Below are positions 17,469 through 63,735 of a stretch of 64,000 nucleotides of DNA, in pieces. The position numbers and the translations under genes are program-made. The stretch's first letter is position 1. Every line of letters begins with the position of its first letter. The notes beneath the pieces are model-generated. The model made no database searches. It had not been told where the DNA came from and saw nothing but the letters and a program-made list of their open reading frames with translations. Source of the DNA: Nitrospira sp. (lineage in GTDB: Bacteria > Nitrospirota > Nitrospiria > Nitrospirales > Nitrospiraceae); assembly GCA_024998595.1 (NCBI GenBank), contig JACOEK010000003.1, positions 186,001 through 250,000 of the forward strand, given 5' to 3'.

Positions 17469-20309
17469 ATGAACAGTCCGTCACAGTCGCGCGCTCATCA
17501 GTCCCAACCACCTACCGGGCTCACGCCCACTCCTGACGCGATGGGCCTCTTATGGGATGCCGTACCGCTGGGGATTTGTCTGCTCGCCTCGGATCAAACC
17601 GTCGTGTTCGTCAACCGGATGGCGGCCCGCCTACTCCGGCGGTCAGCAGCCGACTGTGCCGGAAAAATGTTTTCGAATCTCATTGGTCAGTCTTTCGAAA
17701 TGAATAACGCCTTGCACTCGACGGGGGTGCTGAAATTCCAAGCCGAGGCCGACTCCGCAGCCAATGAGGCCACAGACCACGATGCGGGAGAGGCGCCGGC
17801 TCTCACGGTGATCGAGTGGGAGCAACTGCTCCTTTCAGGAATTCCATCCGTCTCCACGCTCCTGACGCTCCGGGATATCACCAGGGAATGCGAACTGGAA
17901 CAGGATCGTGACCGGCTGGCCACCGTGGCCGAAGAAAGCCCCTACCCGATTGTGGAAATCGATCGGAATGGCAACATCCTCTACGTGAACCCCGCGATGG
18001 TGGAGGTCCTGTGCCGTTTTGGGTACGACCCGAACGGCAAACCGGATATTCTTCCCGACAATCTTCCTGCGCTTGTGGCCACCTGTCTCCTGGAAGGGCG
18101 GACGGTGAGTTCACAGGAGGTTGTGAGAGGCGAGGCCTGTTACAGCTGGACGCTGTGCCCGGTTCCCAGCAATCAACTTGTACGCGCCTATGGTATCGAC
18201 CTGGGGGAGGTACATGCGACACATCGCGCGCTGAACGCCACCGCCGATCATCTTCGCGAAAGCAACCGCCAACTGGATCAGGCGCTGCAGCAGGCGCAGG
18301 CGGCCGCACGAGCAAAGTCGTCGTTCCTCGCCATGATCACGCATGAGTTGCGCACGCCCATGAACGGGGTGATCGGCATGGCCAGCCTGTTGCTGGATAC
18401 ATCGCTGACTGAAGAGCAACGCTCCTTTACGCAAACCATTCAGCAATGCGGCGAAGCCCAGCTCTCCCTGATCAACGACGTGCTGGAATGCAGCAAAATC
18501 GAAGCCGGCAAACTGGAACTCGAGACGCTTGATTTTCAGCTCCGCACGACGGTGGAAGATGTGCTCTCTCAGTTTGCGGAGCGGGCGCAACGCAAAGGGC
18601 TGGAAATTACCGGCCTGGTTCACGCCGCCGTGCCCAATGCGTTACGCGGTGACCCCGGCCGGCTGCGCCAGGTATTAACAAACTTTGTGGGAAATGCGGT
18701 CAAATTTACCGAACAGGGAGAGGTCACGCTGCAGGCGTTCTTGGAGAGTGACACCCCGGCAGGAGTGATGATCAGGTTTGAAGTGACGGACTCCGGCATC
18801 GGCATCAGCGAAGAAATCCAGGGACGGCTGTTCCAGGCCTTTACCCAGGCTGACAGTTCCACGACACGCAAGTACGGCGGAACAGGACTCGGGCTGGCCA
18901 TCTCGAAACAACTCGTGGAGTTGATGGGCGGCACCGTCGGTCTCCGGAGCCGGCCCGGGGAAGGTACCACCTTCTGGTGTACGGCCCTGTTCCAGAAACA
19001 AGCCGTCTGTGCACCCGCGATCGTTCCCTCGGCAGAGCTGAGCGGTCGCCGCATCCTCATCGTGGACGACAATGAGTCGAATCGCACGATTCTCCATCAT
19101 TTGGTCTCGGGATGGGGTATGTACGACGGCCAGGCACGTAATGCCGCAGAGGCGATGGACATGCTGGAGCAGGCGGCGGCAAAGGGGGAACCCTACGATG
19201 CGGCCGTGCTGGATATGCTGATGCCCGGTAAGGATGGACTCCAATTGGCGCAGGACATCCGGGCTCACCAACAAGGGGCCGGCATTCGATTGGTGGTCCT
19301 GACATCGCTGATTCAGCCGGGTCATGCTGAACGAGCCCGCCGAGCGGGATTCACAGCCTACCTGACCAAACCGGTGCGCCATGATCAACTGCAAGGGTGT
19401 CTCCGCGTGGTGTTCGGGCTGCAGCAGAAGTCGCCGACCGCAACGATCGGGACGGGTAAGGGACAACCGATTGCACCGACCCTCATCACGCGGCACACGT
19501 TAGCCGAACAATCCCCACGACCGCGCATCCTGGTGGCCGAGGACAATGTGGTCAATCAGAAGCTGGCCGTTCGTATGTTGGACCGTCTCGGCTATCAACC
19601 TGACGTGGTATCCAATGGGCAGGAAGCCGTGACGGCCTTTGAACGGGAATCCTATGCGGCGATCGTCATGGATTGCCAGATGCCCACGATGGACGGCTAC
19701 GAAGCGACGAGGCTCATTCGTGCACACGAAGAGCGACCGGACGCGTCCCGGACTCGCGCGCACATTCCGATCATCGCCCTGACTGCGAATGCGTTGCCCG
19801 GCGATCGTGAACGATGCAAGGCCGCCGGGATGGACGACTATCTGACCAAGCCGGTGAAGACTGATGACCTCGGGCTCATCTTGCAACGATGGGCTCCCGT
19901 GAAAGCTGTGGTCGACGTGTCGCCCCCTCCCCCTCCTCGCGACATGAGCAAGACGGACTCGCATGTCTTCGACGCCAATGCCATGCTGGCGAATATCGGC
20001 GGAGATGCGGAACTATTCGATCAACTGATCCGACTGTTCCTGGATCGACACGGCATCATGATGAAGGAGATTGAGTCGGCCATCGGGCAGGCTGATGCCG
20101 CAGCGCTCGAGCGCGCCGCTCATAGTCTAAAAGGCACGGCTGGGAATCTCTGTGCACCCGATGTCGTATTGTTGGCCAGTCAGCTTGAAGCATCCGGACG
20201 GCTCGGAACGCTTACGGAAGCCCCCAGCCTGCTCGTCCGGTTGGATCGGACGGTACAGGAATTGGTGGCCGTCTTAACTCGTCAGATCAACCCAGCCGAT
20301 TCGCAGTAA
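17469..20309 (+). CDS. Cytoplasmic hybrid sensor histidine kinase (PAS-PAS-HisKA-HATPase-REC-REC-Hpt)
   Basis: 946 residues with no transmembrane segment. Two PAS-like regions (about 25-130 and 150-250) lead into the HisKA box [19 protein letters not shown] (His near 293) and an HATPase domain ([16 protein letters not shown]). Two receiver domains follow ([10 protein letters not shown] near 528 with [18 protein letters not shown] near 685 with VMDCQMP), then a C-terminal Hpt domain ([11 protein letters not shown] near 883). This is a BarA/ArcB-like phosphorelay protein. It starts 2 bp after the HD-GYP stop, so its output may be linked to c-di-GMP turnover. Confidence 0.9.
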
Positions 20310-29570: not shown

Positions 29571-30440
29571 TCAGGCTGCGATCGTGGAGGTGGCATCTAC
29601 GGATACGTTCGCCCGAACGGTCTCCGGGCCGGAAATCCCAGAGGCGTCGGTCCAGGCCGCATCCAGGGCACGCGTGGCTGCTTCGAGCAGGAGGACCGGG
29701 TCAAGGTCGTTTTGGTTGGAGAGGCCGACACCGATCCGGCTGGTCAGAAAGACTTCGTGCTGATCAAGGGTGATCGGCAGGGCAATGGCTGCCTGCATTT
29801 TCCTGGCGAGAACAGACACCTCATTCGAATCCGTGACATGGTCCAACAACACCGCAAATGTCCGTTCGGCGAGCCTCGCGACCGTGTCGGTCGTACGCAA
29901 CGCGCTCTTCACGCGGGCCGCTTCGATTCGATACATGAGATGGCTGTTGAGTTCGCCAGGGGTTTCAGCGGCAGGCGTGAAGTAATCCAGCTCTACCATG
30001 AGTACCGCCACCTGACGGCCATGTTTCTGCGCGCGGATCAGGGCTTGATTGAGCAGTGAGAGGAACAGGCGATTCAACGGCAAACCGGTGACCGGATCGT
30101 ACGTGCTCGTTCCGACCTGTTCTGACTCACTCCAGAGCCTGTGCACGGTGGAAGCACGACTGCGCGGGGTCCAGAAGGTTGCTCCGAATATCATCAGCGT
30201 GAATGCCACCCCGATCGAGACCATCACGGGATAGGCCGTTAAGGCGGAGATCGTCAAAAGGCCGATGGCCGCCGTCCAGTACAAGCCGCCGGCCATAAAC
30301 AGGAGACAGGCCAGCACGCCGAATCGGGCGGCCTCATATGACCGGGTGAGCGTCTCCCCGTCCGGCAACGCATGCTGATGCACGGGCTCTGATCGGCTGG
30401 GCGTCTTCGAATCGGTCGATGCTGGTTGAGGAAGGCTCAT
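29571..30440 (-). CDS. Membrane protein with degenerate GGDEF domain
   Basis: 289 residues. Two membrane segments (about 38-62 and 66-90) precede a GGDEF-fold domain (about 110-270) with DPVTGLPLNR near 115 and DTVARLAERTFAVLLDHV near 185. The catalytic signature reads AERTF (191-195) instead of GGDEF, so diguanylate cyclase activity is unlikely; a regulatory or binding role is inferred. A sigma-28-like promoter lies 49-76 bp upstream, which puts it in the late flagellar regulon. Confidence 0.85.
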   Translation of the reverse strand: MSLPQPASTDSKTPSRSEPVHQHALPDGETLTRSYEAARFGVLACLLFMAGGLYWTAAIGLLTISALTAYPVMVSIGVAFTLMIFGATFWTPRSRASTVHRLWSESEQVGTSTYDPVTGLPLNRLFLSLLNQALIRAQKHGRQVAVLMVELDYFTPAAETPGELNSHLMYRIEAARVKSALRTTDTVARLAERTFAVLLDHVTDSNEVSVLARKMQAAIALPITLDQHEVFLTSRIGVGLSNQNDLDPVLLLEAATRALDAAWTDASGISGPETVRANVSVDATSTIAA

Positions 30441-44668: not shown

Positions 44669-45301
44669 CTAGGGTATGGTGAGCAACTGCTCGGTCAGCC
44701 GAGCTGCGCGCTCCGGCTTGACCTCCGCGAGAATGGCTCCCGCGGATTTACCTTTGAGCAGGCGGAGCACTTCGAGTGCCTTCCGTTCAGGCATGCGTTC
44801 CAAGCGGGCTGCGGCTTCTTCAGCCGGCATGGCTTCGTAAATCTTCGCAAGTTGGGCTTGATTGACGTTAACGGTGGGACCGGTCTTGGAGGACGCTTTT
44901 AACTTGTCAGCTTCACCCGCCCCCTTGGCCTGAGCGGCCTGGCGACGTTTCTTTTCGGCCTCCACCGCTTGTTCGTGGCGTGTGACGATCTGCTCCAGCT
45001 CTGCCTTCAGCTCCAAGAGATGCGTCTCCGATCCGCGCACGGCCGTCTCACGTTTGTCCAAAAGACGTTTGCGTTGCTCCAACATCTCGTAGATTTCCCG
45101 TGGGGCGCTCGTGGCCGGTCCTTGCACCTCTTTTTTCGCGTTCTCTGGTTTCGGCTCATCCTTCTGTGCAACAGGAGCCGGCTTCGCTTCTTCAGCCGCA
45201 TACGCCGTTGCGACGACCGCAATCAAGAGCGCACCCACAAGCAATCGCGCCGCCGCACCGGCACCCACTCTGTGATGAGTACGGCTTCCGGTCTGTGTCA
45301 T
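44669..45301 (-). CDS. MotE-like / MgtE-N domain flagellar protein
   Basis: 210 residues. A signal anchor (LLVGALLIAVVATAYA), a Lys/Glu-rich coiled coil (about 70-125), and a C-terminal MgtE-N-like helical domain (QAQLAKIYEAMPAEEAAARLERMPERKALEVLRLLKGKSAGAILAEV) also found in FliG N-domains and MotE. MotE family proteins are periplasmic chaperones for motor proteins. ATG overlaps the fliJ stop; last gene of the flgB operon. Confidence 0.82.
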   Translation of the reverse strand: MTQTGSRTHHRVGAGAAARLLVGALLIAVVATAYAAEEAKPAPVAQKDEPKPENAKKEVQGPATSAPREIYEMLEQRKRLLDKRETAVRGSETHLLELKAELEQIVTRHEQAVEAEKKRRQAAQAKGAGEADKLKASSKTGPTVNVNQAQLAKIYEAMPAEEAAARLERMPERKALEVLRLLKGKSAGAILAEVKPERAARLTEQLLTIP

Positions 45302-45738
45302 GCCCGTTCTCCCTTTTGCAGTGGGCTTCGTCTCCAGGCGCGTTCATCCAGCAATTGTTGATCCTGGCGTTCACGACGGCGGCGTAGGTCCAGCGCGGCG
45401 CGGGCCTCGAGGAGATCCAGTTTCTTTCGATACTGCATCGCTTCGAGGAGTTCTGCACGCTTCTGTTCCATCTTGGTCTGTTCGGCCGCCAACACCTGCT
45501 CGAGGCCCTTCCGTGTGGCGATCGCCTGGTCCATGGCATCAAGGTGGCCATAGACTTGCTCAACGGTGCTTCCTGCCCGGACCTGAAGAAGATACCGGTC
45601 GGCATCTTCTTTGGCTCGTGCTTCCAACATGGCCATCCGATTCGCGGTCTGCTGCAGGGCATGGCTGAGTTCCGCCAGTTCCAGTTTGGCGACTTCTTCC
45701 AGTTGCACCGCATAAGTCCTGAGGACGGTCACGTTCAT
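45298..45738 (-). CDS. fliJ: Flagellar export chaperone-escort FliJ
   Basis: 146 residues, almost entirely coiled coil (VQLEEVAKLELAELSHALQQTANRMAMLEARAKEDADRY). FliJ sits in the FliI hexamer like the gamma subunit of F1-ATPase. Context after fliI and ATGA overlap support the call, as FliJ sequence is poorly conserved. Confidence 0.88.
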   Translation of the reverse strand: MNVTVLRTYAVQLEEVAKLELAELSHALQQTANRMAMLEARAKEDADRYLLQVRAGSTVEQVYGHLDAMDQAIATRKGLEQVLAAEQTKMEQKRAELLEAMQYRKKLDLLEARAALDLRRRRERQDQQLLDERAWRRSPLQKGERA

Positions 45739-47042
45739 TGGATCGCTCCTGCGAGAGACAGGAGGGCGTCGATCGATTGCGGCAAGCCGACCGCCTGTTT
45801 GGTTTCTTGTCGCAGAAATGCCGTGATGCCGTCATGGGCGGACACGGCTTTGTCGAGGTCTTTACTCGTACCCGGCTTGTAGGCACCCAGGGTAATGAGA
45901 TCTTCCGAACGCCGATAGAGCGCCGTGCGTTCAAGGACCAACCGTGCAGCCGCATAGTGTGCCGGCGTCACGATGTCCCGCATTACCCGGCTCGTGCTTT
46001 GAAGAATATCGATGGCGGGAAAATGATTGCGAGCGGCGAGTTCCCGCGACAGGACAATATGGCCGTCAAGAATAGAGCGCACCGCGTCCGCGACTGGATC
46101 ATTGAGATCGTCGCCGTCGACCAGTACGGTGTACAGTCCGGTTATGCTGCCACCGCTCTGCGCCGGGCCCACCCGCTCCAGAAGCTTGGGCAAGACGGCA
46201 AACACAGACGGCGTGTAGCCTTTTGTCGTCGGCGGCTCCCCGATGGCCAACCCAACCTCACGCTGGCTGTAGGCCAATCGTGAAAGCGAATCCATCATGA
46301 GCAGGACATGTTTGCCGCAATCACGGAAATATTCCGCAATGGCGGTGGCGACCAGCGCGCCCCGAATTCGAACCAGCGGTGGTTGATCGGATGTCGCCAC
46401 GATGACAATGGAACGGGCCCTCGCTTCAGGAGTGAGATCGCGCTCCAGGAATTCTTTCACCTCGCGGCCCCGCTCGCCGACCAGGGCGATGACCCGCACA
46501 TCGGCTTGGGTATAGCGGCTGATCATGCCTAAGAGCACACTTTTCCCCACGCCAGACCCGGCAAACACACCGATCTTCTGGCCCTGACCGCACGTCAATA
46601 ACGCGTTGATGGCACGAATACCCAGATCGACAGGCTGTGTGATTCTGGCACGATGCAGGGGATTCAACGGTGCTGCGTACAAAGGAACACGCACGTCGCT
46701 ACGGATAGGCGGCTGCCCGTCCAATGGATGTCCGAGGCCATCAAAGATGCGACCCAACATCTGAGGACCGACGGGTACAGAGGCGACATGCCCCTTCATC
46801 ACGACGCGACTGCCTGGTCCGATACCCTGCATCTCGCCTAATGGCATCAGCAACACACGATCTTCGCGAAATCCCACGACCTCCGCCATGACGGCTCCAT
46901 GGCCTCCCTCGCGGGTGATCTCACACACTTCCCCGACAGAGGTGAACGGGCCTGAGGCTTCAATGACGATACCGACGGCCTGGGCCACCCTGCCCGTGAC
47001 CGACAGCGGCTCGACATGTTCCAAGCGTTCGCTAAGCTTCAC
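45735..47042 (-). CDS. fliI: Flagellar export ATPase FliI
   Basis: 435 residues from the GTG at 47042 (GGGATACC site), giving the usual FliI length; it overlaps the rec-fliH stop by 11 bp. Walker A GVFAGSGVGKSVLLG near 158, RVIALVGERGREVKEFLERDL, and the DSLSRLAYSQREVGLAIGEPPTTKGYTPSVF segment are family signatures. Hydrolyses ATP to release export substrates. Confidence 0.95.
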   Translation of the reverse strand: MKLSERLEHVEPLSVTGRVAQAVGIVIEASGPFTSVGEVCEITREGGHGAVMAEVVGFREDRVLLMPLGEMQGIGPGSRVVMKGHVASVPVGPQMLGRIFDGLGHPLDGQPPIRSDVRVPLYAAPLNPLHRARITQPVDLGIRAINALLTCGQGQKIGVFAGSGVGKSVLLGMISRYTQADVRVIALVGERGREVKEFLERDLTPEARARSIVIVATSDQPPLVRIRGALVATAIAEYFRDCGKHVLLMMDSLSRLAYSQREVGLAIGEPPTTKGYTPSVFAVLPKLLERVGPAQSGGSITGLYTVLVDGDDLNDPVADAVRSILDGHIVLSRELAARNHFPAIDILQSTSRVMRDIVTPAHYAAARLVLERTALYRRSEDLITLGAYKPGTSKDLDKAVSAHDGITAFLRQETKQAVGLPQSIDALLSLAGAIQ

Positions 47043-48081
47043 CGGTATCCCGCTTTCGCAAGGCTTCGCCCAGTCGTAACAATTGCGTGTCCAGCGTCGC
47101 GTCAATCAATAGGCTCTGCGCCTGGACGAGGCATCCGCCGGGACTGATGGCAGGGTCGGTCTCCAATTTTAAGGTCAACAGTCCGTGGGGTGTTTGGCTT
47201 AGTGCGGTACGCGCCGATTCGACCACCGCAAGATCCGACGGATGCACGCGGACACGGACGAGACCGCTCTCATGCAGATGGGCGAGCGCGCTACGGACTT
47301 GCGTCACGATCATGTCGCGTTTTTCTGTGACGGCGTCCCGCACCACCTTATGGGCAATCATGAAAGAGAGGGCGGCGATTTCCTCTTCGACCGTCTCATG
47401 CAGGCTCTGCCAGGTATCCTCCAAGCGCGTCATCAGCGACGCCAGGAGGTTCTGTTCCCGTTGTCGAGCGGCTGCCACCCTTTCAGTCGAGCGTTTTTCG
47501 CCTTCCGCCACTCCCCGCTCAAACTCGGTGAGATCCTCGGTTCCAAAGGGACGATTGCCCCGGCTGAAATCGGCCAGCGGCACGGGACGTAATTGAATAT
47601 TGCCTGAGCGAATCAACGTGCGGGTGAGCACGGTATTTTCCTGTCGCAGGCGATAGAGCTCCAGCAGTCTGGAGACCGCCAGCCTGACTAGCTCGACTTG
47701 AAATGGTTTGGTAAGAAAATCCGCCGCCCCGGACTTCATGGCCCGCACGGCCAGCTCAATATTGCCGTGGCCCGTCATCACGATCCCAAGAAGGCGATTG
47801 TCGATGTCGAGGGCCTGTTGCAGAAAGGCAATGCCATCGACACCGCCGAGCTGCACATCCACGATCACCACGGCAACGGAACGTGTTCGGAGATGACTCA
47901 GCGCTTCCTGGACGGAACCGGCGGTGAGCACCGGATGTCCTGTGGGCTCCAGCATCTCGGCCAGCAACAGACAAATGGACGGCTCGTCATCGACGATCAA
48001 CACGGCCCGAGGCGCCAACTCCTTCTCGGACTCTGCCGACGTCGCTATCGAAACTCTCGTGCCCACGGCAGCGCTCCCCAT
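47032..48081 (-). CDS. fliH: Response-regulator receiver domain fused to FliH
   Basis: 349 residues in a single frame. Residues 25-140 form an apparently complete receiver domain: acidic pair D31/D32 (AVLIVDDEPS), phosphoacceptor D75 (VVIVDVQLGGVDG), T103 (VMTGHG), K125 (FLTKPF). A helical linker (LYRLRQENTVLTRTL, about 142-156) resembles the helix after the receiver of the NtrC-type regulator at 57137-58552. Residues about 168-349 match FliH (FERGVAEGEKRSTERVAA coiled coil; AHKVVRDAVTEKRDMIVTQVRSALAHL; DLAVVESAR; GGCLVQ). It is the only fliH in the window and sits between fliG and fliI, so it must serve as the FliH of the export ATPase complex. Confidence 0.88.
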   Translation of the reverse strand: MGSAAVGTRVSIATSAESEKELAPRAVLIVDDEPSICLLLAEMLEPTGHPVLTAGSVQEALSHLRTRSVAVVIVDVQLGGVDGIAFLQQALDIDNRLLGIVMTGHGNIELAVRAMKSGAADFLTKPFQVELVRLAVSRLLELYRLRQENTVLTRTLIRSGNIQLRPVPLADFSRGNRPFGTEDLTEFERGVAEGEKRSTERVAAARQREQNLLASLMTRLEDTWQSLHETVEEEIAALSFMIAHKVVRDAVTEKRDMIVTQVRSALAHLHESGLVRVRVHPSDLAVVESARTALSQTPHGLLTLKLETDPAISPGGCLVQAQSLLIDATLDTQLLRLGEALRKRDTGEA

Positions 48082-49083
48082 TTACAATAGCTCCTCGCCG
48101 CCGCCGCCTCCGATGACGATGCGCCCTTCCTCCTCGAGTTTGCGGCAGACTTTGAGAATATTCTGTTGGGACTTTTCGACATCCGATACCTTGACCGGGC
48201 CGCGAGTCTCCATGTCTTCCTTCAGCATTTCTGCCGCACGGCTGGACATGTTCTTGAGGAACTTCTCTTTGATTTCCGGCGTCGCGCCCCGCAAGGCGAT
48301 GGGAAGGTCCTCTTTGCTGATTTCCTTCATGAGCTCTTGCATGCCGCGAGAATCCAGATCTACAAGGTCATCGAAGACAAACATCAAGGCACGGATACTT
48401 TCCGCCAGGGCCTGATCGCGCTCGGTGATCTTGGCCATGATGGCGCCTTCAGTATTCTTATCGACACGGGTCAGGATCTCGGCCATCAGCTCGGCTCCGC
48501 CGACGGACATGCTCGACATCCCCATCGAAGCCGACAGAATTTCCTGCAGACTGTCGCTCAGCTCAGCCAACACTTCTGGCTGCACCTCTTGCATGGTCGC
48601 CAGACGTAGGGAGACATCAGCGTGTAAATGCACCGGCAAGAGGGCCAGGACGGCGCTGGCCTGTTCGGCTTCCATTTGTCCCAAACAGACGGCAATGGTC
48701 TGCGGATGTTCGATCTTGAGGATCTGGGCCACCGTGCGCGCATCGACCCATTTCAATGCGTCGATGCCTGGATAGGTTTTTGTGTTCAGGGATTCCATCA
48801 TGCGCGCCGCTTTTTCAGGGCCCAGCGCTTTCTTGAGGATGGCTTCCATGAATTCCCGCCCTTCGAATTGGACCTCGCCGGAGGAACTGGCCTGTTCAAA
48901 TTCCGCGATGACGCTGTCTTCTTCCTGCTTGGTGATATTCGCGGTCTCCTTCATGAAGGCGCCGAGCTTGCGAATATCCTTCGGGTCGAGGGTTTTCATG
49001 ACCGCGGCTGCGGCCTCTTCGCCGATCGCTCTGAGCAGAATGGCGGCTTTTTGTGCGCCGGTGAGCTCTTTGTTCATGGCCAT
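48082..49083 (-). CDS. fliG: Flagellar motor switch protein FliG
   Basis: 333 residues. N-terminal LTGAQKAAILLRAIGEEAAAAVMKTLDPKDIRKL, middle EHPQTIAVCLGQMEAEQASAVLALLP, and the C-terminal torque helix region (MFVFDDLVDLDSRGMQELMKEISKEDLPIALRGATPEIKEKFLKNMSSRAAEMLKEDM). The conserved charged residues facing the stator are present. Links the MS ring to the C ring. Confidence 0.96.
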   Translation of the reverse strand: MAMNKELTGAQKAAILLRAIGEEAAAAVMKTLDPKDIRKLGAFMKETANITKQEEDSVIAEFEQASSSGEVQFEGREFMEAILKKALGPEKAARMMESLNTKTYPGIDALKWVDARTVAQILKIEHPQTIAVCLGQMEAEQASAVLALLPVHLHADVSLRLATMQEVQPEVLAELSDSLQEILSASMGMSSMSVGGAELMAEILTRVDKNTEGAIMAKITERDQALAESIRALMFVFDDLVDLDSRGMQELMKEISKEDLPIALRGATPEIKEKFLKNMSSRAAEMLKEDMETRGPVKVSDVEKSQQNILKVCRKLEEEGRIVIGGGGGEELL

Positions 49084-52092: not shown

Positions 52093-53511
52093 TCAGGGTT
52101 TTTCCGCTTCGACCTGATATCCTAAGTCGCGATATTCCCGTAATTTATTTCGCAACGTACGAATACTGATGCCTAACTCCTTGGCGGCATGGGTACGATT
52201 ATCTTTTACTCGAGCCAGGGTCTTGAAGATCAGGTCGCGTTCCATTTCCCACAACGACCCGTGAGCGGACGGCGCAACGAGCGCCTCCACGGTTTCGATC
52301 GGCTGCATGGGAACCGTTCCATCCCCCGGCAGTAAGTGATCGACGTCAACCGCGTTTCCGGTTGTCACTAAAATGGCGCGTTCCATGACATTTTCTAATT
52401 CGCGCACATTGCCCTTCCATGCACGCTGTTGAAGATCGGCGATGGCCCGTTCGGACAACGTCGGCACGGTCAGGCCGTTGCGTTGCGCCGACGAACGGAG
52501 AAAATGTCTGGCGAGGAGCGGAATATCGCCCGGTCGTTCGCGAAGCGGAGGCACGGTGACGGGAAACACATTCAAGCGATAGAACAGATCCTCGCGAAAG
52601 CGCCCTTGTGTCACCTCGTGGTAGAGCGAGCGATTCGTCGTGGCGATTACGCGGATGTTGACCGGAACCGGCTCACGCCCTCCGATGCGATCGACTTCCC
52701 TCTCCTGCAAAACCCGCAACAGCTTCGACTGTAGGCCCAGATTCATTTCGCTGATTTCATCGAGAAACAGCGTTCCGGTATGGGCCATTTCAAACTTGCC
52801 CAGTTTTTTCTGAATCGCACCGGTAAAGGCTCCGCGCTCATGACCGAACAACTCGCTCTCCAGCAGGTTGTCCGGAAGTGCGGCGCAATTCAGGGCGACA
52901 AACGGACGATGGGCGCGGGGGCTTCTCGCGTGGATGTAGCGCGCCAGCAACTCTTTTCCCGTCCCGCTTTCACCGCTGATCAACACGGTGGCTTGGCTGG
53001 CCGCAACGCCTTCGAGGGTCGTGAGCAGACGAATCATGCCGGGATCCTGCGTCAAGATCGCGCGCGCTTCGAGCGTCGCAGGGGCATCGTGCTCATCCGG
53101 TTCTGTACTGGCTTGCAGATTGAGGATGACCCGTTCGAGCAGGTCGGTGGAGAACGGTTTTAGAATATAATCGTTCGCGCCAAATTTCATGGCTTCCACC
53201 GCCGTCTCGACGGTTCCATACGCAGTCATGAGAATGATGAACGTATTGGGAGCTTTTTGTTTCAACGCTTTGACGAGTTCGAGCCCATTCAAACGAGGCA
53301 TTTTCAAGTCGGTGACCACCAGCCAGGGCTTCAACCGTTCCACCTGCTCGATGGCATCCGCCCCGTCGATGGCACCACGCACTTGATACCCCATTCGACG
53401 CACGGTCTCCGACAAGGCCGTTCGCATCGACGGTTCATCATCGACGATCAATACGATTCGGGCCTCTTCGGCAGCAGCTGAAGGTCCCTGCAAAGCTGGT
53501 TGCGCGCTCAT
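52093..53511 (-). CDS. FlrC/FleR-like sigma-54-dependent response regulator
   Basis: 472 residues: receiver domain (about 17-130; VLIVDDEPSMRTALSE, LVVTDLKMP, ILKPF), AAA+ domain (GESGTGKELLARYIHA, GAFTGA near residue 226, FLDEISEM), and a Fis-type HTH (HAAKELGISIRTLRNKLREYRDLGY). The partner kinase overlaps by ATGA. Adjacency to flgB and five sigma-54 elements nearby make it the likely activator of the structural flagellar operons. This is inferred from the FlrBC paradigm. Confidence 0.9.
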   Translation of the reverse strand: MSAQPALQGPSAAAEEARIVLIVDDEPSMRTALSETVRRMGYQVRGAIDGADAIEQVERLKPWLVVTDLKMPRLNGLELVKALKQKAPNTFIILMTAYGTVETAVEAMKFGANDYILKPFSTDLLERVILNLQASTEPDEHDAPATLEARAILTQDPGMIRLLTTLEGVAASQATVLISGESGTGKELLARYIHARSPRAHRPFVALNCAALPDNLLESELFGHERGAFTGAIQKKLGKFEMAHTGTLFLDEISEMNLGLQSKLLRVLQEREVDRIGGREPVPVNIRVIATTNRSLYHEVTQGRFREDLFYRLNVFPVTVPPLRERPGDIPLLARHFLRSSAQRNGLTVPTLSERAIADLQQRAWKGNVRELENVMERAILVTTGNAVDVDHLLPGDGTVPMQPIETVEALVAPSAHGSLWEMERDLIFKTLARVKDNRTHAAKELGISIRTLRNKLREYRDLGYQVEAEKP

Positions 53512-54797
53512 TCGTACCTCTTTTCTTCTGTTATGCTCACAATCTGACGGGAAGCCTCTGAAGAACCGGACAAGCTCACGCGTGGAGCAGGCGTCGAGGG
53601 AGTCTGCCCGGGCCCTCGCGGCAGAGTGATTAGAAACGAAGTGCCATGTCCCGGACTACTCTCCACATCGATACGTCCATGATGGGCTTCGACCAATGCG
53701 TGCACGATGGCGAGTCCCAAACCGGTTCCGTGATCTTTCGTGGTAAAAAACGGATCAAAGACCCGCGATTGCAGTTCGGCCGGAATACCCGTGCCGGTGT
53801 CGCTCACCGTGAGTTGGATGGCCGGCGATTCCTGAGGTTGAGGAGGGGCCGGACAGGCAGCCAGGGTGAGCGTTCCACCCTCCGGCATGGCCTGAACGGC
53901 ATTCAACACCAGATTCAAGAGCACCTGCTTCATTTTCGCGCCATCGCACCAGAGCTGAGGGACGAGCGGGTGCACCTGACACCGTACCTCGACAGTGCCA
54001 GGCGGGATGGCGTGAGTCGCCAGTGTCAGAACTTCTCGGATAAGGATTTCGGTCTCATGCCATCCAAGCCGAGAACAGTCAGGCCTCGTATAGACGAGCA
54101 AGTTGGACAGGAGCCGATCCATGGATTGAACGGCCATGGAAATATGCTCGGCATAACTTCGGAGTTGAGGCTGCTCACGGAGATCTTTTCGCAACATCGA
54201 CGCGAACAGTTCCACACTGCCCAAGGGATTCCGAATCTCGTGCGCGATGCTGCCCACCATCTGCCCCATGGCTTCCAGGCGGTTGCGCCGCTGCAAACGA
54301 TCTTCAAGCTGGCGTACCCGAGTGACGTCATGAATCAGCACGAGCTTTCCGGTCAGATTCCCTGTCTCGTCGGTCAGATCGGTTTCTGACAGGGCGATGG
54401 TGACGCCGCTGGGAAGGACGAGCGGGTATTCACCATGGTCCTTGCGGATCTCTTCCAACACGGCGCTGGCTCGACGTCCTCGCAGTCCAGCCTGGGGCAC
54501 GCCCAATAGCTGCTCCGTAGAGTGATTGCACCGCACCACTACATCTTGCGAATCCGCCACGATGACGCCGGTATCCAATGATTCTAATACCGCGGTCACA
54601 TGGGCACGCATGTCTTCGGTTTCACGAAGATGTTCGCGCAGACTGGCATTGGTTTGTGCAAGTTCCAGATCCATCTGCTGCAGGCGCGTCGTTAACGCGT
54701 CATACGACTGCTGCAACACGGTTGCGGCTTGATCGAAATCTCGAAACGCGCGCGTCAGCAACTCATTATTAGTCGTCTCTCCCGCCTGACTGGTCAC
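53508..54797 (-). CDS. FlrB/FleS-like cytoplasmic sensor histidine kinase
   Basis: 429 residues, GTG start overlapping the TPR gene stop (GTGA). An N-terminal coiled coil (about 25-70), a PAS domain (VTAVLESLDTGVIVADSQDVVVRCNHSTEQLLG), the HisKA box GSIAHEIRNPLGSVELFASML, and an HATPase ([34 protein letters not shown]). No membrane segment, as in FlrB/FleS, which sense the state of the export apparatus. Confidence 0.9.
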   Translation of the reverse strand: MTSQAGETTNNELLTRAFRDFDQAATVLQQSYDALTTRLQQMDLELAQTNASLREHLRETEDMRAHVTAVLESLDTGVIVADSQDVVVRCNHSTEQLLGVPQAGLRGRRASAVLEEIRKDHGEYPLVLPSGVTIALSETDLTDETGNLTGKLVLIHDVTRVRQLEDRLQRRNRLEAMGQMVGSIAHEIRNPLGSVELFASMLRKDLREQPQLRSYAEHISMAVQSMDRLLSNLLVYTRPDCSRLGWHETEILIREVLTLATHAIPPGTVEVRCQVHPLVPQLWCDGAKMKQVLLNLVLNAVQAMPEGGTLTLAACPAPPQPQESPAIQLTVSDTGTGIPAELQSRVFDPFFTTKDHGTGLGLAIVHALVEAHHGRIDVESSPGHGTSFLITLPRGPGQTPSTPAPRVSLSGSSEASRQIVSITEEKRYE

Positions 54798-57136: not shown

Positions 57137-58552
57137 TTAATTTTGAATGGAGTATCCATGACTTTTCGGATCAAAACCTTTTCGTTTTAATTTTTCTACA
57201 AGTGTCGTGCGATTGACCTGAAGCAACTGCGCTGCCCGGCTTGTTATGCCGTTGGCTTTACGCAAGGCTTCTCCGATAAGACGGTTTTCGTAATGTTCGA
57301 GTTCCTTCGTCAAATTGATGCCATCCTCAGAGAAGCGAATAAACTGCTCGGGCGCCTCGGCCGTCTTCCCTGCGGCCATTTTCAAAGAACGTTCGGGGAG
57401 GTCGGCCACAGTGATCATGCCCCTCTTCTTCAACACGCACAGACGCTCGAGCATGTTCTCAAGTTCCCGGATATTTCCCGGCCATTCCTCTTCGGTCATG
57501 CGAACCAATGCGTCGGGCTCCATGCCGAGAATCTCCGTTCGGCGCAATTGATTGAATTGAGCGATAAAATGGTTAACCAGGAGCGGAATATCGCTACGGC
57601 GTTCCCGTAATGGAGGAATGTGAATGGGAATGACGTGCAATCGATAATACAGATCCTGCCGGAATCGGCGCTCCTGAACAGCCTGCGCCAAATCCTGATT
57701 GGTGGCGGCAATAATACGCACATCCACGTTAATCGTCCTGGTTCCGCCGACTCGTTCGAAGCATCGCTCCTGTAACACGCGCAACAGCTTCACCTGCAAT
57801 GGCAAGCTCATTTCGCCGACTTCGTCTAAAAAGATGGTTCCACCATGAGCCAGTTCAAATCGGCCAAGCCTTGTGTGCGCGGCTCCTGTAAACGCCCCTT
57901 TTTCATGCCCGAACAGCTCCGACTCTAAGAGCGTTTCCGGAATCGCCCCGCAATTGACAGGTACCAGTGGACGGTCGCGGCGCATACTATTGAAATGCAA
58001 CATGCGCGCGATCAGTTCCTTGCCCGTTCCGCTCTCCCCTTCAATCAAGACCGTACTGTCGCTATCAGCGACCTTCTCGACGAAATCGAGCACCATCCGC
58101 ATCGGGGCACTGGTGCCCACCAAATGCTCAAGACGGTATTGGTCCCGCACCGCTTTTCGTAGCAGGTGGTTTTCCTGTTTAAGTTTGTAGACGTCCAACG
58201 CTTTTCGCACCACCACCGCAACGGTGTCGGGCTCAAAGGGTTTGGTGATGAAGTCGAAGGCCCCGGCCTTCATCGCTCGCACGGCATAATCAACGGTCCC
58301 ATATCCGGTCATGACAATCGCAATAACTTTGGAGTCGATCTTGGAGATTCTGTCGATCGTCTCCAGTCCATCGATCCCCGGCATTTGAAGATCAGTCAAT
58401 ACGACGTGTACCGGTTGGTCCTTCACCGCTTCCACTCCGTCGAGTCCGCTCGACATGACCGTCACCTGATGACCTTCACTCGTGAGCGTTTCCGCCAGAA
58501 GCTGGCGGACAGCCGGATCATCGTCGATCACGAGAATGTGTGACTGGCTCAT
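57137..58552 (-). CDS. NtrC-family sigma-54-dependent response regulator
   Basis: 471 residues: receiver (HILVIDDDPAVRQLLAETL, VVLTDLQMPGIDG, FITKPFEPD), linker helix (VYKLKQENHLLRKAV), AAA+ domain with GESGTGKELIARMLHF and GAFTGA near residue 218, and a Fis-type HTH (ITSRAAQLLQVNRTTLVEKLKRKGF). The HTH resembles that of flagellar master regulators such as FleQ/FlrA. No partner kinase is adjacent. Monocistronic, upstream of the FlrBC-like operon. Confidence 0.88.
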   Translation of the reverse strand: MSQSHILVIDDDPAVRQLLAETLTSEGHQVTVMSSGLDGVEAVKDQPVHVVLTDLQMPGIDGLETIDRISKIDSKVIAIVMTGYGTVDYAVRAMKAGAFDFITKPFEPDTVAVVVRKALDVYKLKQENHLLRKAVRDQYRLEHLVGTSAPMRMVLDFVEKVADSDSTVLIEGESGTGKELIARMLHFNSMRRDRPLVPVNCGAIPETLLESELFGHEKGAFTGAAHTRLGRFELAHGGTIFLDEVGEMSLPLQVKLLRVLQERCFERVGGTRTINVDVRIIAATNQDLAQAVQERRFRQDLYYRLHVIPIHIPPLRERRSDIPLLVNHFIAQFNQLRRTEILGMEPDALVRMTEEEWPGNIRELENMLERLCVLKKRGMITVADLPERSLKMAAGKTAEAPEQFIRFSEDGINLTKELEHYENRLIGEALRKANGITSRAAQLLQVNRTTLVEKLKRKGFDPKSHGYSIQN

Positions 58553-60074: not shown

Positions 60075-61490
60075 CTAGGCGTCTTTGACCTCCTCCGTTG
60101 CGTCCTCAATCTCAGTGAGATCCAGATCATGACGCTCCTTCAACATAGAAGGATGCAACCCATACTTCTTTAACATTTTATAGAAATCGGCCCGATATCG
60201 GCCGGCAAACTGAGCTGCTCGCGAAATATTTCCACCCGTCATCTGCAGCACATTGCGCAAATACGACCGTTCGAATTCCTCTTTTGCTTCCGTCAAAGGT
60301 TTTAAACCAATATCGGTCGATGCCCCAGCCGATGGAAGGAGTTCCGGCAACACCATGTCTTGCCTGGACATGACCACGGCCTTTTCCACTGCGTTCTCAA
60401 GTTCCCTCACATTGCCGGGCCATGGATAACCCATAAGCCGATGCATAGCTGCCGGTGTAAATCCACGAACATCCTTATTCGAACGTCTCGCACTCTGCTT
60501 CAAAAAATGCTGGGCCAAGAGCGGAATGTCGTCCCTCCGTTCGCGCAGGGCTGGAATGCTAAGCGGCACAACGGAAATTCTATAGTAAAGATCGTGCCGA
60601 AATGCCCCGAGCTTTACACATTCCGCCAAATCCTTATTTGTAGCCGTAATGATGCGCACATCGACTTTTGTTGTGTAATCAGCCCCTACTTCACGCACTT
60701 CCCGCTCTTGTACAGCGCGTAGCAATTTCACCTGCATCGGCAGGGACATTTCGGCAATCTCGTCGAGGAAAAGAGTCCCCCCGTTCGCGCTTTGAAAAAG
60801 CCCTCGCTTTGCCGTCATCGCATTGGTAAATGCACCACGGATATGTCCAAATAATTCACTTTCAAAAAGACTTTCACTAATTGCGGCACAATTCAATGCC
60901 ACAAAGGGCCCCTTCGATCGACGGCTATTGGCATGGAGAACCCTGGCCAGCACTTCTTTCCCTGTTCCGGTTTCTCCGGTCAACAGTATGGTGGCGTCTG
61001 AATCAGCGATCTGAGCAACTTGCTGAAACAATCGTTGCATAGCTGGACTTCTAGCAATGACATTTTCCAAGCCATACAGTTCCTTGACCAATGATTTCAG
61101 CCGTTGGATCTCCCTGGTCATCCGCAACTGAATCAAGGCTTTATCGATAGTCGCTTTCAATTCTTTGTCATCAAATGGCTTGGTCAAATAACCGAAGGCG
61201 CCGCGTTGCATTGCTTCTACCGCATTGGGAATACTCCCGTGGGCGGTCAGGATGATGACCGGTAGCCCCGGCTGAATCTGTAAAAGCTCTTCGGTCAGCA
61301 CCAATCCATCTTCCGCTCGCAACCGCAAATCGGTAATCGCGATATCAAAAGTTTCCTGTCGAGCTGCAACCAGGGCATCGCGTCCTGTCGTACAGGGTGT
61401 CACCGAAAATCCGAGGGCAGACAGCCGCATCCGCAATAAATGCAACAGACCTTCGTCATCATCCACAACGAGAATTCGTTCTTGTTCCAT
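60075..61490 (-). CDS. GlrR-like sigma-54-dependent response regulator with GAFTNA motif
   Basis: 471 residues: receiver (ILVVDDDEGLLHLLRMRL, IAITDLRLRAEDG, LTKPFDDKE), AAA+ domain (TGETGTGKEVLARVLH; FLDEIAEM) and a C-terminal HTH (NISRAAQFAGRYRADFYKMLKKYGL). The sigma-54 contact loop near residue 218 reads GAFTNA instead of GAFTGA. Operon order kinase-lipoprotein-regulator and the HTH type match E. coli GlrK-QseG-GlrR. Confidence 0.87.
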   Translation of the reverse strand: MEQERILVVDDDEGLLHLLRMRLSALGFSVTPCTTGRDALVAARQETFDIAITDLRLRAEDGLVLTEELLQIQPGLPVIILTAHGSIPNAVEAMQRGAFGYLTKPFDDKELKATIDKALIQLRMTREIQRLKSLVKELYGLENVIARSPAMQRLFQQVAQIADSDATILLTGETGTGKEVLARVLHANSRRSKGPFVALNCAAISESLFESELFGHIRGAFTNAMTAKRGLFQSANGGTLFLDEIAEMSLPMQVKLLRAVQEREVREVGADYTTKVDVRIITATNKDLAECVKLGAFRHDLYYRISVVPLSIPALRERRDDIPLLAQHFLKQSARRSNKDVRGFTPAAMHRLMGYPWPGNVRELENAVEKAVVMSRQDMVLPELLPSAGASTDIGLKPLTEAKEEFERSYLRNVLQMTGGNISRAAQFAGRYRADFYKMLKKYGLHPSMLKERHDLDLTEIEDATEEVKDA

Positions 61491-61498
61491 GACGGTCC

Positions 61499-62266
61499 TT
61501 AGGGTTTGGGCGGCTCCGACTGTTGCGACGGAACAAAACTTGAGGGAGGCTTGATCGGACGGGTCTTCCCTCTCATTTCCTGATCGATGCGTTTGAGCGC
61601 TTCAAGCTGACTCGTGAGTTCCTCGATTTTCTTGTCCCGATCGCTGACTTGCCGTTGCAGGCTTTGCAGCGTGGCCGGCTCAACCGACATGCGATGCGAC
61701 TCACGCCTAGAGTTAAACAGCTCAGTCTTTCGCTCCTGATCTTGAAGCTCGCGCTGCATCGCCTCAAGCGATTGGGCCTCGCTGTCCTGTAAGGAACGTA
61801 ATTGTTGGATGGTAAGTTCGCGGTCGAGGAGATCGCGCACGGTGCGCTCAATTGTGTGGAAAAGCACCTCTTGGTTCTGGACGATTGCAGGCCCGCTCCA
61901 GACGGAGCGTATCCATGACGGATCAGACACTTCGCCGGCCTGAAGCAATTGCAGCCAGAGTCGGCTCGATACAGCCAACTGGCTTTTGGGGGCGACGGAA
62001 ATGACTTTCTCAAAGTTATGGATGGCCGACTCTCGACTTTCATACAGAGAGGTCAACGCGCGGGTGAAGAATACATGATCGCAGGTATTTTTACTAGCAC
62101 ATTTGGCCGTTAATGAGGCATCTTTACGTAAAATGGCTTGCAACATTTTGCCCTCCCCCCCATCATTTGAAAAATAGGGGGCCTGAGCCGGGGGCGGAGG
62201 GAGGGTGCCACAGGCAGACAAGAGTCCAAAAAATACCAACATACCTATGGAATGCCACCGGTGCAC
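61499..62266 (-). CDS. QseG/YfhG-like lipoprotein
   Basis: 255 residues from a GTG overlapping the kinase stop (TAGTG). Lipoprotein signal with lipobox LLSAC (Cys19) and a C-terminal coiled coil (about 160-230) ending Pro/Ser-rich. The position between a GlrK-like kinase and a GlrR-like regulator matches QseG of enterobacteria, which activates the kinase from the outer membrane. Sequence similarity is low, so the call is contextual. Confidence 0.7.
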   Translation of the reverse strand: MHRWHSIGMLVFFGLLSACGTLPPPPAQAPYFSNDGGEGKMLQAILRKDASLTAKCASKNTCDHVFFTRALTSLYESRESAIHNFEKVISVAPKSQLAVSSRLWLQLLQAGEVSDPSWIRSVWSGPAIVQNQEVLFHTIERTVRDLLDRELTIQQLRSLQDSEAQSLEAMQRELQDQERKTELFNSRRESHRMSVEPATLQSLQRQVSDRDKKIEELTSQLEALKRIDQEMRGKTRPIKPPSSFVPSQQSEPPKP

Positions 62267-63735
62267 TAGGCCAACATCCCTGGTTTCGTTAGATACAATA
62301 TGAATCGCACAGTCGTCCCTTTTCCCACTTCACTTTCCACCCAAATCCTCCCGCCATGTGCTTCTACGACTTTTTTTGCAAGGGCTAACCCGAGACCGCT
62401 TCCCACTGAAACCTGCCGGCTCTTGGCTCGTCCCTGGTAAAACCGCTCGAAAATATGTGGCAGTTCCTCCGTTGGTATGCCTGGGCCTGAGTCTGCGACG
62501 TCGACAAACAGCAACCCCTCGTCCCGCCTAGGTGTCATTTGCAACCTGACAATTGCACCCTCGGGGCTGTACTTCAACGCATTCGAGAGGAGATTGTCCA
62601 GTACTTGTTCGATGCGCGTACTATCTGCCCTGACCCAGTGCCGCTCCACTGGGGCCTCGATCAGAAGCTGCACGTGTTTGGCATCCGCTAACAGACGGAT
62701 TTTATTGACCGAAATATCGGCGACTCGACGAAGATCCGTCGGGACAAACCGATATTCCATCATGCCCGACTCCATCTTCGACAGATCCAGGATTGTCGAA
62801 ATGAGATACATTAGCCGCCGGCTACTATCCGACATGATGCGAAGCGTAGTGCGTTGGTCCTGTGTTAATGGACCGGGAATTTCATCTAATAAGAGATGGG
62901 TGCCTTCCTGGATCGAAGCCATCGGCGTGCGCAACTCATGGGATACATGGGCGAGGAACTCGCTTTTGATGTCATCCAACTGCTGCAACTTAGTTCCCAT
63001 CCATTTGACAGTTTCGCCCAATTCCCGCAATTCCCGGGGGGCCTGACCATCCAACGAAGCCTTGAAGTTGCCCTGCCCCATCTCCTGAATGGTGGCCTGG
63101 AGTCGACGCAAGGGGCGAAGAATATTGTAACTAGCCACCGCGGCCATGCCGAGACCAAAGAGGAGCGCGACCAAAACGAGATTGCGTGTGACGGCTTCCG
63201 CCTGCACAGAGCTGGCATGAGATTCATTCACTCCTACAGCAATCCGCCGCTCGTGTAGACCGATATACTGCTGAAGCGTAGCGGCTATTTTCGCCACCAC
63301 GGCCTCGCGCCGCGCATCATAGGCCGAGGTCGCCTCCGGGTGGCCGCTTGACTCAGCCAGCTGGGATTGAAACAGCGCCAGATGCGCTTGCTGAAGGCCC
63401 TCGACCTCCTTGAGCAACTTCGTCTCCGACTCCGATCCCTCACGGGCGAGCAACAACTGCAAGACCTGCTGAAACTCTTTACTCTCGGTATCGAAATGCT
63501 CCAGAAAAGTGGCGGCAGGCACGGCCACATACTTCTTCTCACCCTGAACCTGCTCATATATCGACGTTAGTAGGCGCTTGGCCGAATCAATCTCCGGATG
63601 GTGGTGAGAGCCGACCTCGGTATTGAGGCCGGCTAATGTCCGAATCTGCAACAACGCATAGATATTCACGGCGGTCATTACTGCAATAATGACCAGATAC
63701 GTCAGAACCAATCGCCAGAAAATCGAGAGGCGCAC
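62266..63735 (-). CDS. GlrK/QseE-like membrane sensor histidine kinase
   Basis: 489 residues, GTG start. First membrane helix 7-30, a periplasmic helical sensor (about 31-180), second helix (LVLVALLFGLGMAAVASYNIL, about 183-205), a HAMP domain (RPLRRLQATIQEMGQGNF), HisKA box FLAHVSHELRTPMASIQEGTHLLLDE and HATPase (DSGPGIPTEELPHIFERFYQG; SGLGLALAKKVVEAHGG). The HisKA sequence is close to that of GlrK. Predicted to phosphorylate the GlrR-like regulator. Confidence 0.9.
   Translation of the reverse strand: MRLSIFWRLVLTYLVIIAVMTAVNIYALLQIRTLAGLNTEVGSHHHPEIDSAKRLLTSIYEQVQGEKKYVAVPAATFLEHFDTESKEFQQVLQLLLAREGSESETKLLKEVEGLQQAHLALFQSQLAESSGHPEATSAYDARREAVVAKIAATLQQYIGLHERRIAVGVNESHASSVQAEAVTRNLVLVALLFGLGMAAVASYNILRPLRRLQATIQEMGQGNFKASLDGQAPRELRELGETVKWMGTKLQQLDDIKSEFLAHVSHELRTPMASIQEGTHLLLDEIPGPLTQDQRTTLRIMSDSSRRLMYLISTILDLSKMESGMMEYRFVPTDLRRVADISVNKIRLLADAKHVQLLIEAPVERHWVRADSTRIEQVLDNLLSNALKYSPEGAIVRLQMTPRRDEGLLFVDVADSGPGIPTEELPHIFERFYQGRAKSRQVSVGSGLGLALAKKVVEAHGGRIWVESEVGKGTTVRFILYLTKPGMLA

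Follow-up and report, generated by a model that had tools for sequence, protein, structure and literature searches.

The peripheral stalk of the flagellar export ATPase in Salmonella is a FliH dimer, which touches FliN and FlhA with its extreme N-terminal region (PMC9114704). The flagellar histidine kinases FlrB of V. cholerae, FleS of P. aeruginosa and FlgS of C. jejuni are active only with the MS ring, rotor and export gate in place, which links kinase activity to export-gate assembly; no direct contact of FlrB or FleS with the basal body was detected, and the authors left room for an unidentified factor (PMC7064773, accessible sections). How export-gate assembly is coupled to two-component signalling in polar flagellates is a standing question. 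The outputs described in the same paper are transcriptional, and its text makes no mention of FliH.

The DNA stretch analysed here (the window, 64,000 nucleotides) originates from a Nitrospira genome of 4.23 Mb that is 99.37% complete. Its FliH resembles that of Salmonella (PDB 5b0o) in the FliH domain (PF02108), the gene's place between fliG and fliI and its single copy, but a receiver domain (REC) and an NtrC-type linker replace the short N-terminal tip. The receiver is similar to linker-bearing receivers of NtrC, NtrX and DctD (PDB 4d6y, 1zy2, 1qkk) in fold, pocket and extended last helix; here, however, the output is FliH rather than an AAA+ sigma-54 or DNA-binding domain. As in FlrBC, FleSR and FlgSR, genes for an FlrB-like kinase and an FlrC-like regulator lie beside the basal-body genes. 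Both the protein and the domain are known, and their combination makes a part of type III export look like a response regulator. A control point of this kind is not known to have been described, according to the original prediction, and a literature search likewise found no title or abstract reporting a receiver on FliH, subscription literature being largely outside that search; a word search of the accessible text of PMC5706428 and PMC2674601 also gave nothing on a receiver-FliH fusion. What is new here is the kinship of the FliH receiver with a regulator of the same operon (57137-58552), the probable single gain of the fusion and the existence of unfused sisters.

The REC-FliH gene (47032-48081, minus strand) is one uninterrupted open reading frame with an ATG start, encoding 349 aa. 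The TAA codon of fliG (48084-48082) abuts the ATG (from 48081), and GAGGAG 9 nt upstream of the ATG forms a good ribosome-binding site. Two Pfam domains are found in the product, Response_reg at residues 27-134 (E 1.3e-22, 80.5 bits with a cut-off of 30.2) and FliH at residues 209-336 (E 1.3e-22, 80.6 bits with a cut-off of 24.1), so the predicted fusion is real; neither an AAA+ sigma-54 interaction domain nor a Fis-type HTH or other DNA-binding domain was detected by Pfam. The NCBIfam FliH models all score below their cut-offs (NF004270, 81.8 of 180 bits; NF005198, 59.8 of 200; TIGR03825, 45 of 148.9; NF004267, 44.3 of 293). Since these models accept only close relatives of their own lineages, the C-terminal part is still classified as FliH. 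The phosphorylation residues D31, D32, D75, T103 and K125 are all at the positions claimed for them. This fliH had also been called the only one in the cluster: no other protein of the genome exceeds the Pfam cut-off, three further matches being below it (E 0.08 to 0.42), and the possibility of a second complete fliH elsewhere, named in advance as a refutation, was thereby rejected.

The flagellar cluster occupies about 20.4 to 58.6 kb of the window on the minus strand, from fliW and flagellin to the NtrC-type regulator. Directly upstream of the fusion gene is fliG (48082-49083, minus strand) and directly downstream is fliI, encoding the export ATPase (45735-47105, minus strand), whose frame overlaps the end of fliH; both were assigned by Pfam and gene order. 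The order regulator-TPR-kinase-regulator-flgB-flgC-fliE-fliF-fliG-fliH-fliI was read in 19 of 20 loci, the twentieth ending at a contig edge. The first regulator, at the cluster head, is an NtrC-type sigma-54 response regulator (57137-58552, minus strand; Pfam, gene order). The kinase (53508-54797, minus strand) is a PAS histidine kinase, putatively named FlrB-like from Pfam, NCBIfam and gene order, and the second regulator (52093-53511, minus strand; Pfam) is FlrC-like and NtrC-type. In two genomes (G203 and G292; loci L246 and L248) a second kinase-like gene is situated directly upstream of the 57137-type regulator; in the same genomes the linker coil of this regulator lacks the usual letters and the linker of the FliH receiver is kept. 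A gene with an MgtE_N-type match follows fliJ (44669-45301, minus strand) and is present in 19 of 20 loci, the exception (L260) ending within fliI.

The proposed search of FliH homologues for an N-terminal receiver showed that the fusion is family-wide. In Nitrospiraceae, FliH exceeds the cut-off in 129 of 175 genomes, with 130 matches in total. All 130 frames were read and scored with a profile seeded from the window's own receiver; 125 carry REC and five do not (genomes G060, G325, G141, G320 and G321). In other Nitrospirota families, FliH was matched in 76 genomes at E <= 0.01, of which 66 were over the cut-off; REC is absent from all 24 frames examined, and the remaining matches, judged by frame length alone, do not exceed 294 aa among those over the cut-off. 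All 54 named loci have REC, including the Ca. Nitrospira defluvii chromosome FP929003.1, though they are not independent evidence: fused proteins supplied the query, and many of the loci represent the same genomes. The named relatives are labelled Nitrospira, Nitrospiraceae, Nitrospirae and Nitrospirota, with one Nitrosospira.

When FliF, FliG and FliI were combined in one tree with other families as the root, the unfused genomes of the family, five in number, formed one clade (support 100/99) and the 16 fused rows another that is not strongly supported (68/86); one change suffices to explain the fused and unfused states. The sequences strongly support a gain of the fusion, probably in a single event, in an ancestor of most flagellated Nitrospiraceae and its retention ever since. 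All five unfused genomes retain the same order of genes from the regulator to fliI, and these sisters are natural controls for the receiver domain. One genome, G214 (MAG_266; 84% complete, 3% contaminated), contains two REC-fliH copies on contigs C33 and C47 (L161, L171), with FliH parts 92% and 81% identical to that of the window; this is either a second cluster or a mixed bin.

When 34 receivers of the genome were listed at E <= 1e-8 (self-match aside), the nearest to the FliH receiver was the one from the regulator at the cluster head (111 bits), followed by a receiver with 79.7 bits; the receiver of the FlrC-like regulator scored 54.6 bits. The best match spans residues 25-155 and includes the linker, which reads RLRQENxLLRKAVR in the regulators as against RLRQENTVLKxxxxR in the fusion. 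The receiver tree (87 rows) places the FliH receivers and the 57137-58552 family on one branch with support 100/99. The likeness of the two linkers noted in the original prediction is thus borne out. The FliH receivers make up one side of a branch with support 94/89 and lie next to some of the regulator rows, as would be expected if the FliH receiver derives from the regulator, although the tree has only 120 columns and finer placing is unsure. Derivation of the FliH receiver and linker from the NtrC-type regulator at the cluster head is strongly supported by these comparisons. An origin from the FlrC-like regulator, four genes away, was considered and ruled out, given that the FliH receivers group with the 57137-58552 family instead.

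The protein was modelled with AlphaFold2 as a monomer from 41 aligned sequences, drawing on 40 of the 54 named loci (mean pLDDT 79.8; pTM 0.41, giving no dimer arrangement). The model consists of a receiver, its last helix (residues 129-159), a FliH helix (186-253) and a mixed alpha/beta domain (257-342). The NtrC-type receiver (residues 26-134; 47680-48006, minus strand) is delimited by Pfam, the fold model, conservation and the tree, and its best solved matches by Foldseek are the receivers of NtrX, NtrC1, Spo0F and DctD. Its extended last helix continues as the linker (residues 135-160; 47602-47679, minus strand), placed by the model and the linker comparison. Next is a strongly conserved segment of low model confidence (residues 161-188; 47518-47601, minus strand), with pLDDT under 50 at residues 161-182. 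It corresponds approximately to the N-terminal part of unfused FliH, whose tip aligns in the profile comparison to residues 145-175 with low local confidence. The FliH coiled coil and C-terminal domain (residues 189-342; 47056-47517, minus strand) were recognized by PF02108, by phmmer against the FliH of PDB 5b0o (E 5.8e-6) and by profile alignment to the unfused FliHs of the family (hhalign, E 1.9e-43).

The receiver pocket is well conserved among the fused FliHs of the family. D75 (codon 47857-47859, minus strand) and K125 are invariant in all 125 rows. At position 103, 121 rows have T and three have S (T or S in 124 of 125); at position 31, D occurs in 122 rows and E in two; at position 32, D occurs in 110 rows, A in ten, H in three and G in one. 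One row is cut before the pocket; among the 124 assessable rows the five-residue pocket is complete in 110. Among the 27 sequences of the window's genus, median omega is lowest in the linker (0.043), followed by residues 161-188 (0.059), the receiver (0.075) and the FliH part (0.091), and reaches 0.41 in the N-terminal tail; these are rough NG86 medians with synonymous sites near saturation, and only between 118 and 214 of the 351 pairs were left after filtering. The FliH part, linker and receiver thus appear to be under purifying selection in this genus. Residues 161-188 are among the most constrained, which suggests a putative binding segment.

Our preferred reading, held tentatively and at a little less than an even chance, is that REC-FliH is a phosphorylation switch coupling docking of the export ATPase to the flagellar phosphorelay. 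The starting point, strongly supported by sequence, is the joining of a regulator-derived receiver and its linker, probably once, to the FliH N terminus. Phosphorylation of D75 by a flagellar histidine kinase, with the operon's FlrB-like PAS kinase as a candidate, would rearrange the receiver-linker pair on the FliH dimer at the stalk end that meets FliN and FlhA in Salmonella; by analogy, the N-terminal receiver of the fusion would be placed close to this contact site. Docking or turnover of FliH2-FliI at the export gate could in this way be tied to the phosphorelay that drives sigma-54 flagellar transcription. The fusion, the receiver kinship and the pocket conservation are observed; the phosphorylation, the kinase and the effect on docking are what we infer. 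The FlrB-like kinase would be the simplest donor because it belongs to the same conserved gene run, which is an argument from position and not a proof; sequence does not separate it from other donors. The second donor candidate of the original prediction, a PAS-PAS hybrid kinase (17469-20309, plus strand), owes its candidacy to its place in the window. It has two receivers and an Hpt domain and is BarA-like by the best NCBIfam match, which is below the cut-off. A broader form of the proposal is possible but doubtful: a single phosphorelay would control sigma-54 transcription by way of the NtrC-type regulator and export-ATPase docking by way of the FliH receiver, so that expression and export are switched together.

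With a receiver of the type found in the operon's regulator covalently attached to the anchor of the export ATPase, a link between a phosphorelay and type III export becomes directly testable, and the unfused sisters with the same gene order aid the testing of such a post-translational link. Such a switch, if it exists, would add a structural component of a secretion machine to the outputs of receivers, and a cellular signal may then influence the building of flagella directly in Nitrospira, an environmental bacterium that oxidises nitrite.

The flow of information may also be the reverse. The FliH receiver would then serve as docking bait for the kinase or as a phosphate sink, and the kinase would read the arrival of FliH-FliI at the basal body and set the phosphorylation of the sigma-54 regulators accordingly, as an assembly checkpoint. 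Being of the same kind as the receiver of the operon's regulator, the FliH receiver could compete for the same kinase, and kinases of the FlgS/FlrB type do respond to the MS ring, rotor and export gate, with a factor left unidentified for FlrB and FleS (PMC7064773, accessible sections). However, sharing of the kinase is a supposition, and the FliH receivers keep residues that are absent from the regulator family: R96 (123 R and two K of 125; mostly K or Q in 20 regulator rows), L110 (116 of 125; varied in the regulator rows) and L139 (114 of 125; A in all 20 regulator rows). These residues suggest that the FliH receiver has an output or contact of its own, and we consider the reversed flow unlikely.

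Another explanation is that the receiver and linker are a structural module for dimerisation or docking that replaced the N-terminal tip of FliH, with phosphorylation incidental or lost in places. NtrC-type linkers dimerise. Many unfused FliHs contain a start motif similar to (K/R)I(I/L)K, which was not found as a separate element in REC-FliH; the letters VLK after the receiver were examined as a retained FliH start motif, but this idea was dropped because they are accounted for by continuation of the NtrC linker. Moreover, the acidic pair is not intact in 14 of the 124 assessable rows: all 14 lack D32, one of them also lacks T103, and thirteen belong to genus g2 and one to g5. Judging by the loss of this one acidic pocket residue, phosphorylation may be dispensable in some lineages. 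In one genome with a D32-less FliH (G281), for which a 20-kb stretch was read, the pocket of the 57137-type regulator itself is intact. The invariance of D75 and K125 and the completeness of the pocket in most rows stand against a purely structural role, which we regard as distinctly improbable.

A chemotaxis-type input, in which CheA would phosphorylate the receiver beside the C-ring in a CheY-like manner, is very unlikely. The genome does contain three CheA-like genes, two of them at 15-27 kb past the left end of the window, and FliH meets the C-ring in Salmonella (PMC9114704, available part). Nevertheless, the receiver is NtrC-type and stands closest, within the genome, to sigma-54 regulators, whereas a stand-alone receiver of 124 aa is the last of the 34 listed (39.5 bits); the receiver tree was built without an identified CheY. 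Finally, an assembly or frame artefact, feared in the original prediction as a sequencing error joining two frames, or a decayed passenger domain has a negligible probability and is already refuted by the low omega of the receiver and by the recurrence of the same architecture in 125 of 130 matches, including single-contig genomes such as G055 (FP929003.1).

A sigma-54 promoter scan meant to assign the operon to a regulator was uninformative (74 matches with 71.9 expected), and the scan for sigma-70 promoters and terminators was not above shuffled sequences. Inside the flagellar cluster, a GGDEF gene (29571-30440, minus strand) is located between the gene for a FliA-type sigma factor and a flgF-like gene. 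Beside the cluster (60075-63735, minus strand) lies a run made up of a second sigma-54 regulator, an uncharacterised gene and a histidine kinase. The best NCBIfam match of this regulator is GlrR, below the cut-off; 4 of the 20 loci read have the regulator upstream of the cluster as well.
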